Positions 6,944-47,575 of a stretch of 64,000 bases of DNA are shown piece by piece (within the stretch, counting starts at the first letter, position 1; every line of letters begins with the position of its first letter). The translations under genes and the position numbers were made by a program. A model generated the notes under the pieces. That model saw only the letters and a program-made list of their open reading frames with translations, made no database searches and had not been told where the DNA came from. This DNA is from Bacillota bacterium (GTDB lineage: Bacteria; Bacillota_I; Bacilli_A; RF39; UBA660). The stretch is taken from the NCBI GenBank assembly GCA_015059405.1, contig SVAL01000001.1, positions 1 through 64,000 on the forward strand, written 5' to 3'.

Positions 6944-7974
6944 TGAATTTAAATGATTTTGATTATTATTTACCAGAGGAGTTAATTGCACAAACTCCTT
7001 TAAAGGATAGATCTTCATCTAAATTATTAGTACTTAATAAAAATACTGGGGATGTGGAACATCATCATTTTAGTGATATAATTTCTTTTTTAGAAAGTGG
7101 AGATACTTTAGTTTTAAATGATACAAAAGTAATTCCCGCAAGGTTAATTGGCGTTAAAGAAGAAACAGGTGCAGTAATTGAAGTTCTTCTTTTAAAAAAT
7201 TTAGAAGGAGATAAGTGGGAAGCATTAACTAAACCTGCAAGAAGAGTTAAAGTAGGTAGTATTGTTTCATTTGGTGATGGCTCTTTAAAATGTCGATGTG
7301 TAGAGGAAAAAGATGAAGGAATTCGTGTATTTGAACTTATTTATGATGGTATTTTATATGAAATATTAGATAGATTAGGAACAATGCCACTTCCACCATA
7401 TATTCATGAAAAGTTAGAAGATCAAGGAAGATATCAAACTGTTTATGCTAAAAATGTTGGTAGTGCAGCAGCGCCAACTGCTGGTCTTCATTTTACTAAG
7501 GAATTAATGGAAAATTTAAAAGAAAAAGGGATAAATATTTGTTATGTAACACTTCATGTTGGACTTGGTACTTTTAGACCAGTTAATGTAGAAAATATCC
7601 TAGAACATCATATGCATAGTGAATATTATGAAATAGAGGAAGATACTTGTAATATTATTAATGAAACTAAAAAACGTGGAAATAGAGTAGTTGCAGTTGG
7701 GACTACTACTGTTAGAACACTAGAAACCGTTATGAATAAATATGGGGAATTAAAACCATGTATGGGTAATACTGATATATTTATATATCCAGGATATGAA
7801 TTTAAAATAGTAGATAATTTAATTACTAATTTCCATTTACCTAAATCAACATTAATTATGTTAATTAGTGCACTAGCAGGTAGAGAAAATGTTTTAAATG
7901 CATATAAAGTTGCGGTTGATAATAAATATAGATTTTTCTCTTTTGGAGATAGTATGTTTATAATAAACAAATAA
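6943..7974 (+). CDS. queA: S-adenosylmethionine:tRNA ribosyltransferase-isomerase QueA
   Basis: QueA transfers and isomerises the ribosyl part of SAM onto preQ1-modified tRNA to form epoxyqueuosine. The family hallmarks are [15 protein letters not shown] at the N-terminus, [21 protein letters not shown], the [12 protein letters not shown] motif, [10 protein letters not shown] and [15 protein letters not shown] near the end. The length of 343 residues is normal. The start is GTG at 6943, overlapping the ruvB stop (TAGTG); no nearer ATG keeps the conserved N-terminus. No tgt gene is present here, so preQ1 insertion must be encoded elsewhere. Confidence 0.95.
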
Positions 7975-7997
7975 TGAAAAAAATTATTTGTTTTTTT
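7968..7997 (+). terminator. Intrinsic terminator of the ruvA-queA unit
   Basis: CAAATAAT pairs with ATTATTTG across a GAAAAAA loop and is followed by seven T residues. It insulates the poly-G promoter that starts about 30 bases downstream. Confidence 0.75.
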
Positions 7998-8029
7998 ATG
8001 TAAATAAATAATTTAAAAAATGTAAAATC

Positions 8030-8057
8030 TTGACAAAAGACCGGGGGGGGGTAAGAT
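8030..8057 (+). promoter_or_regulatory. Poly-G spacer promoter of prepilin-BspA gene 1, likely phase-variable
   Basis: A perfect -35 box TTGACA (8030-8035) and a -10 box TAAGAT (8052-8057) are separated by 16 bases, of which nine consecutive G residues fill 8043-8051. Such a run is extraordinary in this AT-rich sequence. Slippage by one G would change the spacer to 15 or 17, moving the promoter away from or onto the sigma-A optimum of 17. Known phase-variable promoters in other bacteria use a homopolymer in exactly this place. Phase variation itself is inferred. The same element recurs at 46065-46092. Confidence 0.8.
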
Positions 8058-8085
8058 TTAAATAGATAATAGAGGAGTGTGTCAA

Positions 8086-9540
8086 ATGAAAAATAAAAAA
8101 GGTTTTACATTAATAGAACTATTAGCTGTAATAGTAATACTAGGACTATTAATGGCAATCGCAATACCAAGTGTAACTAAGTATATAACTGAATCAAGAA
8201 AAAAGACAGTAGTTAGCACAATAGGTAATTATATGACTGCGATGGTAAATGAAGTAAATGATTTAACTTATACTTTTACGGAAGCAAATACTATTTATGC
8301 AGTACCGATAGAATGTATAGCTCTTGAACGTGGTGGAACAAATCCGTTTGGTGCATGGCATCAAGCAAGTAATGCTTATTGGGCATATGTACTTGTACAA
8401 TATGACGATGAAACATCTAGTTATAGATATGGATATACGTTTAAAGATAGTGCTGGATATGGGTTATATCCAACTGCTCAATCAAAATTAAATGAACAAG
8501 GAAAGCAAATCCAAACTAATCTTGAGATAAAAAAGCCAAGAAATGGATCAATAGAGAATGTAACATCTAAATCTAATTGGAATGGATTTATAGTGGATGA
8601 TGATACGCAATTAAAAGTATTAAAAGCAACAACAGAAGGTAATGTAGGAGATGGGACTTCTACATGCACACTTTTACAAAAAGCAAGCAACTACGACCAA
8701 GTACAACAAGAAGTTAAAGATATGACTTTAGTTAATTATGTAGCAAATACATATTTCTGGACATATAGAGAACAAATAAAAAATATAACATTTGAAGATA
8801 GTATAAATATACCTGATAATGCATATAAGTCTTGGGATGTATCAGATACTGGAAATGGTAAGGTGATGGCATATATTATCACTAATAAAGATGACTCTTC
8901 TTTTTATGATTTATACATACAAGGTGATGGAGAAATATATGCGAATAAGAATTGTTCAAGTTTATTTTATGGTTTTAAAAATGTTGATAGTATAAACAAT
9001 ATTGATTTACTGAATACAACTAATGTTACAGATATGAGTCAAATGTTTTTTGACACTGGATATAATAGCACAACTTTTACTTTAGATTTGGGTGATAACT
9101 TTGATACTAGCAATGTTACTAAGATGCGTCACATGTTTTATGCGACTGGATATAGTAGCACAGTTTTTATTTTAGATTTAGGTGATAAGTTTGATACACA
9201 TAATGTAACTGCTATGGCAGAAATGTTTGCTAAGATTGGATACTCGAGTACCAAATTTGAATTGGATTTAGGCGATAAATTTGATACAAGTAATGTTGTT
9301 AACATGGATGGTATGTTTGCTTCAGCAGGGCGTAATAGCAAAAATTTAACTTTGAATTTAGGTGATAAATTTGATACAAGTAATGTAACTAATATGACTG
9401 CTATGTTTTCAATGGTTGGTTATAAAGCTTCTTCATTTTATTTGGATTGTAGTGATTGGAATGTTAGTAAAGTTACAAGTTTTGAAAGATTTAATGAGGG
9501 TGTAACCTCTAAAGTAATTGCACCACCTTTTAAAAAATAA
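8086..9540 (+). CDS. Prepilin-like protein fused to BspA/DUF285 repeats, copy 1
   Basis: A 484-residue surface protein. The N-terminus is a class III prepilin leader and helix, MKNKKG then FTLIELLAVIVILG, with Glu at mature position 5. The pilin-like region extends to about residue 215 and has two Cys residues (IECIAL, STCTLL) that might pair. A module like that preceding BspA repeats follows (SWDVSDTGNGKVMAYI, FYDLYIQGDGEIYA). About five repeats of 30 residues follow, of the type FDTSNVTxMxxMFxxTGY-S-F-LDLGDK; this is the BspA/DUF285 surface repeat. ATG 8086 is the start because AGAGGAG is correctly spaced and leader length fits. The protein would need a prepilin peptidase and PilC-type platform, both encoded at 21.5-23.7 kb. 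Adhesin display is inferred. Confidence 0.88.
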   Translation: MKNKKGFTLIELLAVIVILGLLMAIAIPSVTKYITESRKKTVVSTIGNYMTAMVNEVNDLTYTFTEANTIYAVPIECIALERGGTNPFGAWHQASNAYWAYVLVQYDDETSSYRYGYTFKDSAGYGLYPTAQSKLNEQGKQIQTNLEIKKPRNGSIENVTSKSNWNGFIVDDDTQLKVLKATTEGNVGDGTSTCTLLQKASNYDQVQQEVKDMTLVNYVANTYFWTYREQIKNITFEDSINIPDNAYKSWDVSDTGNGKVMAYIITNKDDSSFYDLYIQGDGEIYANKNCSSLFYGFKNVDSINNIDLLNTTNVTDMSQMFFDTGYNSTTFTLDLGDNFDTSNVTKMRHMFYATGYSSTVFILDLGDKFDTHNVTAMAEMFAKIGYSSTKFELDLGDKFDTSNVVNMDGMFASAGRNSKNLTLNLGDKFDTSNVTNMTAMFSMVGYKASSFYLDCSDWNVSKVTSFERFNEGVTSKVIAPPFKK

Positions 9541-45032: not shown

Positions 45033-45087
45033 TTGCTTTTTTTTAAGGTTTATGTTATAATATGAGCATTTCAGAGGGGTGTTATAT

Positions 45088-46017
45088 ATGAGTGAGGCAG
45101 AAAAATTAAGGTTATCATTTGATGGTTGTGGAATAGATCCATATACATTAATGATAAAAATATTTCAAGGGATTCAATATGAAAAAAGTAAGAATCCAAA
45201 TAGATATTATAGTTCTAATCCTAGTGATATTATTCAAATCATTAAGTTTTATTATACGCTAGTATATGATTCAATATCTTTTGATAATTTAAAGAAAGCT
45301 TTTGTTACTAGATATGTAAAAAATGAAAGTGAATTAGAAGAAGTAAATGGTATATCAGCTCATGGTAAGGCAGAAATAGAAGGATTAAGAGAAATGTATG
45401 AATATATACATTCAGAAGATATAGAGTATATGTTTGATATTTATACACTTAAAGATTTACATAGAAAATTATTTTGTAAAGCAGAATTTCCAGAATATGC
45501 GGGAGACTTTAGAAATTGGGATGTATATTTACCAGGTGCAGCAGCAGAACTTTCTGAGTGGAGTATGATTAGACCTAGACTTAATGAACTTGATAAAAAA
45601 GTTTTAGATTTAAGAGAAAGAGCTAAATACTTAAGAGGAAGTTGTGATACAGATGCTTTAATTGCGTATTTAGGTGATTGCGTAGAATTAAATTGTCAAA
45701 TGATTAAAGTACATCCATTTGGTGATGGTAATGGTAGAACAGTTAGAGGATTTACTAATAAATTATTAGAAGATGCTGGACTTCCACCAGTTTATATTAA
45801 AGCAAGAGAAAGAACTGCTTATCATTTAGCTATGAATAAGGCTAATAATGATGGAGATTATACTGATATAAAGAATTTCTATTTATACAAAATATGTGAT
45901 TCAATTATAGAACTAGATATATCTGATAGAGCTAAGAAAACAAATGAAGCTAGAAAAGCAGAAGAACAAGCAGAAGGAATAAAAGTAAAAAAATTAGGAG
46001 AAAAAAGTAGTCAATAG
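45088..46017 (+). CDS. Fic-domain protein
   Basis: A 309-residue protein with the complete Fic active-site motif HPFGDGNGRTVR at residues 209-220. Fic enzymes transfer AMP or another nucleotide part onto hydroxyl side chains of target proteins. The motif is intact, so activity is plausible. The flap region reads EYAGDFRNWDVYLPGAA. The N-terminal third is helical, and a Ser/Glu stretch near residue 81 might serve as a self-inhibitory helix, but the standard motif is not clear. ATG 45088 follows GGGGTG. No antitoxin-like partner gene is adjacent. It lies directly upstream of the second poly-G promoter, separated by a terminator. Confidence 0.88.
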   Translation: MSEAEKLRLSFDGCGIDPYTLMIKIFQGIQYEKSKNPNRYYSSNPSDIIQIIKFYYTLVYDSISFDNLKKAFVTRYVKNESELEEVNGISAHGKAEIEGLREMYEYIHSEDIEYMFDIYTLKDLHRKLFCKAEFPEYAGDFRNWDVYLPGAAAELSEWSMIRPRLNELDKKVLDLRERAKYLRGSCDTDALIAYLGDCVELNCQMIKVHPFGDGNGRTVRGFTNKLLEDAGLPPVYIKARERTAYHLAMNKANNDGDYTDIKNFYLYKICDSIIELDISDRAKKTNEARKAEEQAEGIKVKKLGEKSSQ

Positions 46018-46030
46018 ACTACTTTTTATT
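46002..46030 (+). terminator. Intrinsic terminator of the Fic gene
   Basis: AAAAAGTAGTC and GACTACTTTTT pair around AATA. It insulates the poly-G promoter beginning 35 bases later. Confidence 0.8.
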
Positions 46031-46064
46031 TTGTGTAAATAATATTTTTAGAAGATGTAAAACC

Positions 46065-46092
46065 TTGACAAAAGACCGGGGGGGGGTATGAT
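46065..46092 (+). promoter_or_regulatory. Poly-G spacer promoter of prepilin-BspA gene 2, likely phase-variable
   Basis: TTGACA (46065-46070) and TATGAT (46087-46092) are separated by 16 bases containing nine G residues at 46078-46086. The spacer is identical, base for base, to that of copy 1 except at the edge of the -10, and the 5' leader to the ATG is also nearly identical. The two promoters keep their sequence although synonymous positions in the coding regions have drifted, suggesting selection on the element. Confidence 0.8.
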
Positions 46093-46120: not shown

Positions 46121-47575
46121 ATGAAGAATAAAAAAGGTTTTACATTAATAGAGTTACTTGCAGTAATAGTAATACTAGGTTTACTTATGGCAATTGCGAT
46201 TCCAAGTGTAACAAAGTATATAACTGAATCAAGAAAGAAGACAGTGGTTAGTACAATAGGAAATTATATGACTGCGATGATAAATGAAGTAAATGATTTA
46301 ACTTATACTTTTACTGAAGCAAATACTATTTATGCAGTACCGATAGAATGTATAGCACTTGAGCGTGGAGGAACAAATCCGTTTGGTGCATGACATCAAG
46401 CAAGTAATGCATATTGGGCATATGTTTTAGTTCAATATGATGATGAAACATCTAGTTATAGATATGGATACACTTTTAAAGATAGTGCAGGATATGGATT
46501 ATATCCAACAACTCAAGCGAAATTAAATGAACAAGGAAAACAAATCCAAACTAATCTTGATATAAAAAGACCAAGAAATGGATTAATAAAAAATGTAACA
46601 GCTATATCTAATTGGAATGGATTTATAGTGGATGATGATACGCAATTAAAAACTCTAAAAGCAACTACAGAAGGTAATGTGGGTGATGGAGAATCTACTT
46701 GTACACTTTTACAAAAAGCAAGTAATTATGAACAAGTGCAACAAGAAGTTAAGGATATGACTTTAGTTAAATGTGCAGAAAATACATATTTTTGGACATA
46801 TAGAGAACAAATAAAAAATATAACATTTGAAGATAGTATAAATATACCTGATAATGCTTATAAATCTTGGGATGTATCTGAAACTGGTAATGGCAAAGTA
46901 ATGGCGTATATTGTTTCTAATAAAGATGATTTATCTTTCTATGATTTATATATTCAAGGCGATGGAGAAATATACTCAAATAAAGATAGTAGATATTTGT
47001 TTCATGAATTTTTAAATGTAGATAATATATATAATTTATCTTTATTAAATACTAGTAGAGCGACAAATATGAGTTATATGTTTTCTAAGACTGGATATAA
47101 TAGTTCTGTATTTAAATTGGATTTGGGATGTAATTTTGATACTAGTAGCGTAACTCATATGACTTTTATGTTTTTTGAAACGGGGTATTTAAGTCCAGTA
47201 TTTACATTAAACTTGGGTAATAAATTTGATACAAGCAATGTTATTTATATGCATTATATGTTTTATGATACTGGGCGATATAGTAACATTTTAAAATTAG
47301 ATTTGGGAAATAAATTTAATACAGCTAAAGTTACTGATATGAGATATATGTTTTTAAATACAGGTTATTCTAGTTCTGTTTTTACTTTAAATTTAGGAGA
47401 TAAATTTGATACTAGTAATGTGACTAAGATGGAGAAAATGTTTAATTATACTGGGTATAAAAGTTCTGCTTTTAAGGTGGATTGTAGCCAATGGAATGTA
47501 GATAAAGTAACAAATCACGATAATTTTAGTACGGGGGTTTCTTCGAAAATAATCCAACCCAATTGGAAACATTAA
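46121..47575 (+). pseudogene. Prepilin-like/BspA repeat protein, copy 2, with an in-frame TGA
   Basis: Same architecture and exactly the same length (1455 bp) as the gene at 8086. It has leader KNKKG then FTLIELLAVIVILG, a pilin-like region, the SWDVSETGNGKVMAYI module and about five BspA/DUF285 repeats. A TGA at 46391-46393 replaces the TGG (Trp) found at 8356-8358 in copy 1. The frame is otherwise open across the full length, and codons before and after differ from copy 1 mostly at silent positions. With standard decoding it yields a 90-residue fragment made of the pilin helix and part of its head, without repeats. It could be a recent pseudogene, a sequencing error, or a site of read-through. 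The real start is ATG 46121 after AGAGGAG; an earlier ATG lies inside the -10 box. Confidence 0.8.

Follow-up and report, generated by a model that had tools for sequence, protein, structure and literature searches.

A nine-G tract in the -35/-10 spacer of a pilin-like surface-protein promoter is a candidate phase-variation switch

Spacer-homopolymer switching has been documented for a few pathogens, whereas the arrangement described here is genome-wide and multi-locus. In Treponema pallidum, tp0126, which encodes an OmpW homologue, carries a poly-G tract in its -35/-10 spacer, with an optimum total distance of 17 (PMC7864442). The tract of Treponema tprL sits just 5' of the start site and was mostly G9, with a share of G8, when a clonal isolate was examined, and tprE, tprG and tprJ need eight Gs or fewer (PMC7864442). 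A poly-G tract also occupies the -35/-10 spacer of porA in Neisseria meningitidis, where one base alters transcription (PMC3899988; PMC7864442), and a promoter-spacer repeat controls the fimbriae encoded by hifA/hifB in Haemophilus influenzae (PMC3899988). Among mollicutes, vlhA of Mycoplasma gallisepticum has a prevalent repeat number of 8 and an active number of 12 (PMC6258824), and metagenomic reads of Candidatus Mycoplasma girerdii revealed BspA-like proteins switched by repeat slippage, the wild type often being OFF (PMC5476646). Our search of the literature found no report that promoter homopolymers cause phase variation in gut Firmicutes or RF39.

The locus lies in the window, that is, the whole 64,000-nucleotide stretch of DNA that was analysed. 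On the plus strand, a -35 box TTGACA (8030-8035), the same in every copy in the genome, is followed by the spacer prefix AAAGACC (8036-8042; identical in 17 of 18 loci), by the nine-G tract proposed as the slippage switch (8043-8051), whose length differs among copies, and by the -10 box TAAGAT (8052-8057), replaced by TATGAT or TAAAAT in other copies. Direct reading of 8030-8057 places 16 bases between TTGACA and TAAGAT, with the nine Gs at the 3' end of the spacer, and a ribosome-binding site AGAGGAG is read at 8071-8077; the promoter is therefore as the first-pass annotation had described it, from its TTGACA, 16-base spacer with nine Gs and TAAGAT to its ribosome site. Immediately 5' of the -35 box is the conserved flank AAATGTAAAAcC (8018-8029, plus strand), with ATGTAAAA invariant or nearly so across the 18 loci. 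Further upstream, a terminator-like hairpin with a T tail (7965-7997, plus strand; fold -7.4 kcal/mol) marks the end of a queA-like gene and is predicted to insulate the G9 promoter from read-through of that gene.

The controlled gene (8086-9540, plus strand) encodes 484 aa with a prepilin-type N-terminus and DUF285/PARCEL (BspA-like) repeats. Its start was moved from GTG 8077, given in a mechanical list of open reading frames, to the likelier ATG 8086, so that the protein begins MKNKKGFTLIELL. Profile searches of the protein matched PF07963 (E 4.6e-9, 35.9 bits against a cut-off of 21.2), PF03382 (E 3.2e-30), TIGR02532 (32.2 bits against a cut-off of 16.3) and TIGR02167, the N_methyl/GFxxxE prepilin motif of type IV pilins (class III signal peptide) exceeding the curated cut-off in both PF07963 and TIGR02532. 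Judged from sequence alone, the product is thus predicted to be a surface-exposed pilin-like protein.

Runs of seven or more Gs occur in the window only at 8043-8051 and 46078-46086; counted as overlapping matches there are six, versus 0.40 expected, and none of 100 shuffles reached six. The second run belongs to a sister cassette, TTGACA-AAAGACC-G9-TATGAT (46065-46092, plus strand; tract 46078-46086), which is preceded by a terminator-like hairpin (46002-46032, plus strand; fold -12.0 kcal/mol). Directly 5' of this cassette, 45079-46017 encodes a Fic-domain protein (PF02661). The sister pilin-DUF285 gene (46121-47575, plus strand) is 78% identical to the 8086-9540 gene, but its codon 91 is an in-frame TGA (46391-46393) in place of the Trp of the intact copy; no other stop interrupts the frame up to 47575, and the gene is probably a decayed copy. 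The earlier claim that G runs above six occur nowhere else than at the sister promoter held within the window, but genome-wide the sister is just one of 17 other loci.

Indeed, the 1.54-Mb assembly (G000) contains 17 places with eight or more Gs, and all 17 have the context TTGACA-AAAG(A/T)CC-G(n)-TA(A/T)(A/G)AT. A core search allowing mismatches returned 19 sites; one locus is counted twice, on the overlapping contigs C3 and C9, which leaves 18 loci. From TTGACA up to the tract, the 13-base sequence TTGACAAAAGACC is identical in 17 of the 18 loci and carries one substitution in the remaining one. The tract is G9 in 14 loci, G8 in two (both interior) and interrupted in two, by GGGGGGGAGG (spacer 17) and GGAGGGAGGGA (spacer 18); no G10 copy was found among the cassette loci of this assembly. 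Conservation starts 12 bases 5' of TTGACA, includes the 5' leader and reaches into the beginning of the coding sequence. Beyond AAATGTAAAAcC the loci share no sequence, only a preference for a terminator-like hairpin, present 5' of 14 of the 19 sites versus 4 of 60 random windows. Prepilin-type genes with differing C-termini are driven by 16 of the 18 loci, and unrelated genes, a PF12869 lipoprotein and a PF03703 (bPH_2) membrane protein, by the other two. Since the same G9 cassette drives the PF12869 and PF03703 genes, promoter and gene family are uncoupled. The G9 tracts of these non-pilin genes lie at L012 4408-4416 (minus strand) and L015 3987-3995 (plus strand). Conversely, G000 also has pilin paralogs without the cassette, whose promoters differ from it. 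Pilin-like genes on one short contig (L092, C4:10420-12576) have another promoter and codon style, one of them with three stops; this contig is possibly a contaminant. The exact 18-mer TTGACAAAAGACCGGGGG had three matches in the GTDB contig collection, all in GC-rich genomes and without promoter context, which we regard as chance, and no match in viral contigs.

The spacing of promoters in the same genome indicates where the optimum lies. In upstream regions of G000, tract-free TTGACA promoters numbered five at spacer 17 (0.0 expected) and none at 15 or 16, and a relaxed -35 box gave counts of 11 for spacer 17 and zero for spacer 16 (about 0.4-0.7 expected). The readable tract-free pilin paralogs likewise have TTGATA, TTGCTA or TTGACA, 17 bases and TAAAAT-type boxes. 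Because these promoters sit at 17, G9 (spacer 16) is one base short and G10 would be optimal, in agreement with the first-pass proposal that nine Gs give 16 and ten the optimum of 17; the window promoter could reach the optimum by a change of one or two bases.

The recurrence of the arrangement was examined in relatives with the pattern TTGACAN{4,11}G8, the reversed pattern serving as control. The pattern was present in 35 of 145 genomes of the family (reversed, 2 of 145), 37 of 296 of the class (reversed, 0) and 40 of 392 of the phylum (reversed, 0), all other genomes drawn for the phylum sample having the same class label. Each of these relatives has a cassette sequence of its own, often in multiple copies of differing length. 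The exact cassette was not found in eight species of the same genus; three of these eight genomes have their own TTGACA-x-G7-10-TATAAT promoters 5' of signal-peptide proteins, and same-genus genomes hold further tract promoters with TTGACT or TTGCAA boxes. A variant in G098 (L194-L199), TTGACA-NNN-G8-TATAT-TATACT, places the -10 box five bases past the tract at spacer 16 and has at least 15 copies. Proteins encoded 3' of the tracts are mostly of membrane or secreted type: a hydrophobic N-terminus was present in 66 of 78 non-pilin ones versus 29 of 161 in the background (Fisher p 1e-23). A poly-C tract was seen at the equivalent place in 1 of 145 family genomes, with no -10 box in that match, and poly-C was accordingly rejected as an equivalent of poly-G. 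In addition, same-genus genomes contain G8-G9 tracts within open reading frames, in frame in L218 (acyltransferase, PF01757), L222, L224 and L227 and out of frame in L229 (polysaccharide pyruvyl transferase, PF04230), L220, L221 and L225. By their frames these are likely translational phase-variable loci, and tracts in both ON and OFF frames suggest that the lineage uses poly-G slippage generally.

Outside the genus, the commonest spacer of tract promoters was 19 (47 cases), followed by 18 (20) and 20 (18), and 17 was seen six times, in a tally that required five or more Gs directly 5' of the -10 box and so favours long tracts. Tract-free TTGACA promoters in sampled pieces of other-genus genomes peak at 17 (16 versus 1 in the control), and interrupted tracts in other genera have spacers of 19, 19 and 20. 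The idea that interrupted tracts are locked ON at 17 was rejected as a general rule, being true for one of the two in G000 (17 and 18) and for none of these three. Given modal assembled spacers of 18-20, most often 19, in most other genera, the rule that ten Gs mean ON should not be generalised, and together with the interrupted tracts at 19-20 they make 17 alone insufficient for reading the ON length. Across 103 loci, longer prefixes go with shorter tracts (r = -0.50), indicating that total spacing is constrained. We take the assembled tract length to be usually off-optimum, as in vlhA; alternatively, it is possible that G-rich spacers have a shifted optimum.

Related genomes are not uniformly G9, and copies within one genome vary, as the comparison of tract lengths called for by the first-pass annotation revealed: G020 ranges from G9 to G14 (interior copies 10, 13, 14, 14 and 9), G154 from G8 to G11 and G117 from 8 to 13. 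G141 has G9 in 17 of about 21 copies among those listed, and the rather uniform length in G000, with G9 in 14 of 16 uninterrupted loci, counts against switching. Over 148 shared bases, the start of C3 matches the end of C9 except for the tract, which is G8 on one contig and G9 on the other. Both are contig ends, where an Illumina poly-G miscall or PCR stutter may occur; the two lengths reflect either a mixed population or a homopolymer artefact of the contig end. In G154, G141, G117 and G020 (L133-L172), many contigs break off no more than 100 bases from a G tract, which indicates that poly-G promoter cassettes fragment metagenome assemblies. One copy, L138, has G15 followed by a poly-A tail and is an obvious artefact. 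Loss of mismatch repair was ruled out as a source of instability, since mutS is present in G000 and in 137 of 145 family genomes; slippage is thus not boosted by such loss. Transcript slippage was also rejected, because the tract is 5' of the -10 box and hence outside the transcript.

Taken together, the 17-spacing rule, the copy-to-copy variation of the tract, the one locus assembled as both G8 and G9 (if not an artefact), the recurrence of the tract before surface proteins and the in-frame and out-of-frame tracts within genes make a phase switch, as first suggested for this promoter, the best-supported reading: the G9 tract is very probably a slippage-driven transcriptional phase-variation switch of a surface-protein promoter. 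We infer that slipped-strand mispairing, at whatever rate it operates, causes the length differences, gaining or losing Gs during replication with mismatch repair in place. Each gain or loss would shift the -35/-10 distance of this sigma-70-type promoter in one-base steps and so change transcription of the pilin-like surface protein. For the assembled (majority) state with its spacer of 16, low expression or none is probable, and G10, at spacer 17, is the probable ON length. With 18 near-identical cassettes, 16 of them on prepilin-type genes, a clonal population would become a mosaic of surface phenotypes.

Length switching might, in a reading that we consider unlikely, be combined with a second role of the tract, the Gs of the non-template strand beside the -10 box being a readable element of a dedicated class of surface-gene promoters. 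Such a class would explain the near-absence of poly-C, which should slip equally, and would, with the same small likelihood, work best at a spacing peculiar to it (the mode being 18-20 in most genera). Slightly less likely again is a fixed promoter element of a surface-protein regulon, either a regulator site or a DNA-shape feature, that does not switch and whose length is kept by selection. The strong clustering of lengths at 9 in G000 and G141, the constant placement of Gs on the non-template strand (poly-C in a single family genome, lacking a -10 box) and the conserved ATGTAAAA flank agree with this reading. However, within one genome the copies are 1-6 Gs apart in an otherwise unchanged cassette, tract promoters have spacers of 14-22 versus 17 in ordinary promoters, prefix sequences of different genera are unrelated, and the same-genus tracts within genes, in ON and OFF frames, point to poly-G slippage in the lineage.

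It is highly improbable that the promoters are ordinary and that errors of sequencing or assembly in G homopolymers produced the length differences, the one at the C3/C9 overlap included. The many tracts at contig ends and the L138 copy fit such an origin, but interior copies differ too, both in G020 and in G000 with its two interior G8 and two interrupted tracts. Dozens of independent assemblies share the tract in this place and orientation, a signal that the controls do not match. Equally remote is the proposal that a multigene family uses the cassette for homologous recombination, with gene conversion of 5' ends, and that the G tract is incidental: cassette and N-terminal coding part are near-identical among loci with differing C-termini, but two cassettes precede unrelated genes, tract-free paralogs have the same coding part behind a different promoter, and the unrelated cassettes of other genera retain only boxes and tract.

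The poly-G system recurs in dozens of genera. Their genomes are small, and the lineage, by its inferred placement, is probably largely uncultured; low-GC genomes of this size and DUF285 proteins may point to a mollicute/erysipelotrich-type group such as RF39. If the phase-switch reading is true, dozens of independent one-base switches would diversify surfaces, affecting host contact and phage attack. It also raises two questions: why the coding strand always carries G, and why the usual assembled length puts the spacing at a value other than 17.

Compared with known systems, the locus has the defining feature of porA and tp0126, a homopolymer of at least eight between recognisable -35 and -10 boxes. 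Like tp0126 and the tpr genes, it is a poly-G surface-protein promoter, with the tract between the boxes as in tp0126; Treponema, however, is a spirochaete and lacks a near-identical cassette at 18 loci, and porA is a single Gram-negative gene without a multi-copy cassette. The hifA/hifB repeat differs in being a TA dinucleotide in a bidirectional promoter. In organisation the locus resembles vlhA, a multi-copy surface gene family with a promoter repeat for each copy, here with 16 pilin-like genes. The GAA trinucleotide of vlhA lies 5' of the core promoter and changes no sigma-70 spacer, whereas no such repeat 5' of a non-sigma-70 promoter was found here, the poly-G being inside a sigma-70-like spacer. 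Comparable, too, is Candidatus M. girerdii, an uncultured mollicute with slippage-switched BspA-like surface proteins, but it uses dinucleotide repeats and frameshifts of the reading frame rather than a promoter spacer. As far as the literature found shows, the kind of switch is already known from tp0126 and porA, with an organisation like that of vlhA, and the new aspects are the lineage of the host, the multiplicity of loci and the strand rule.
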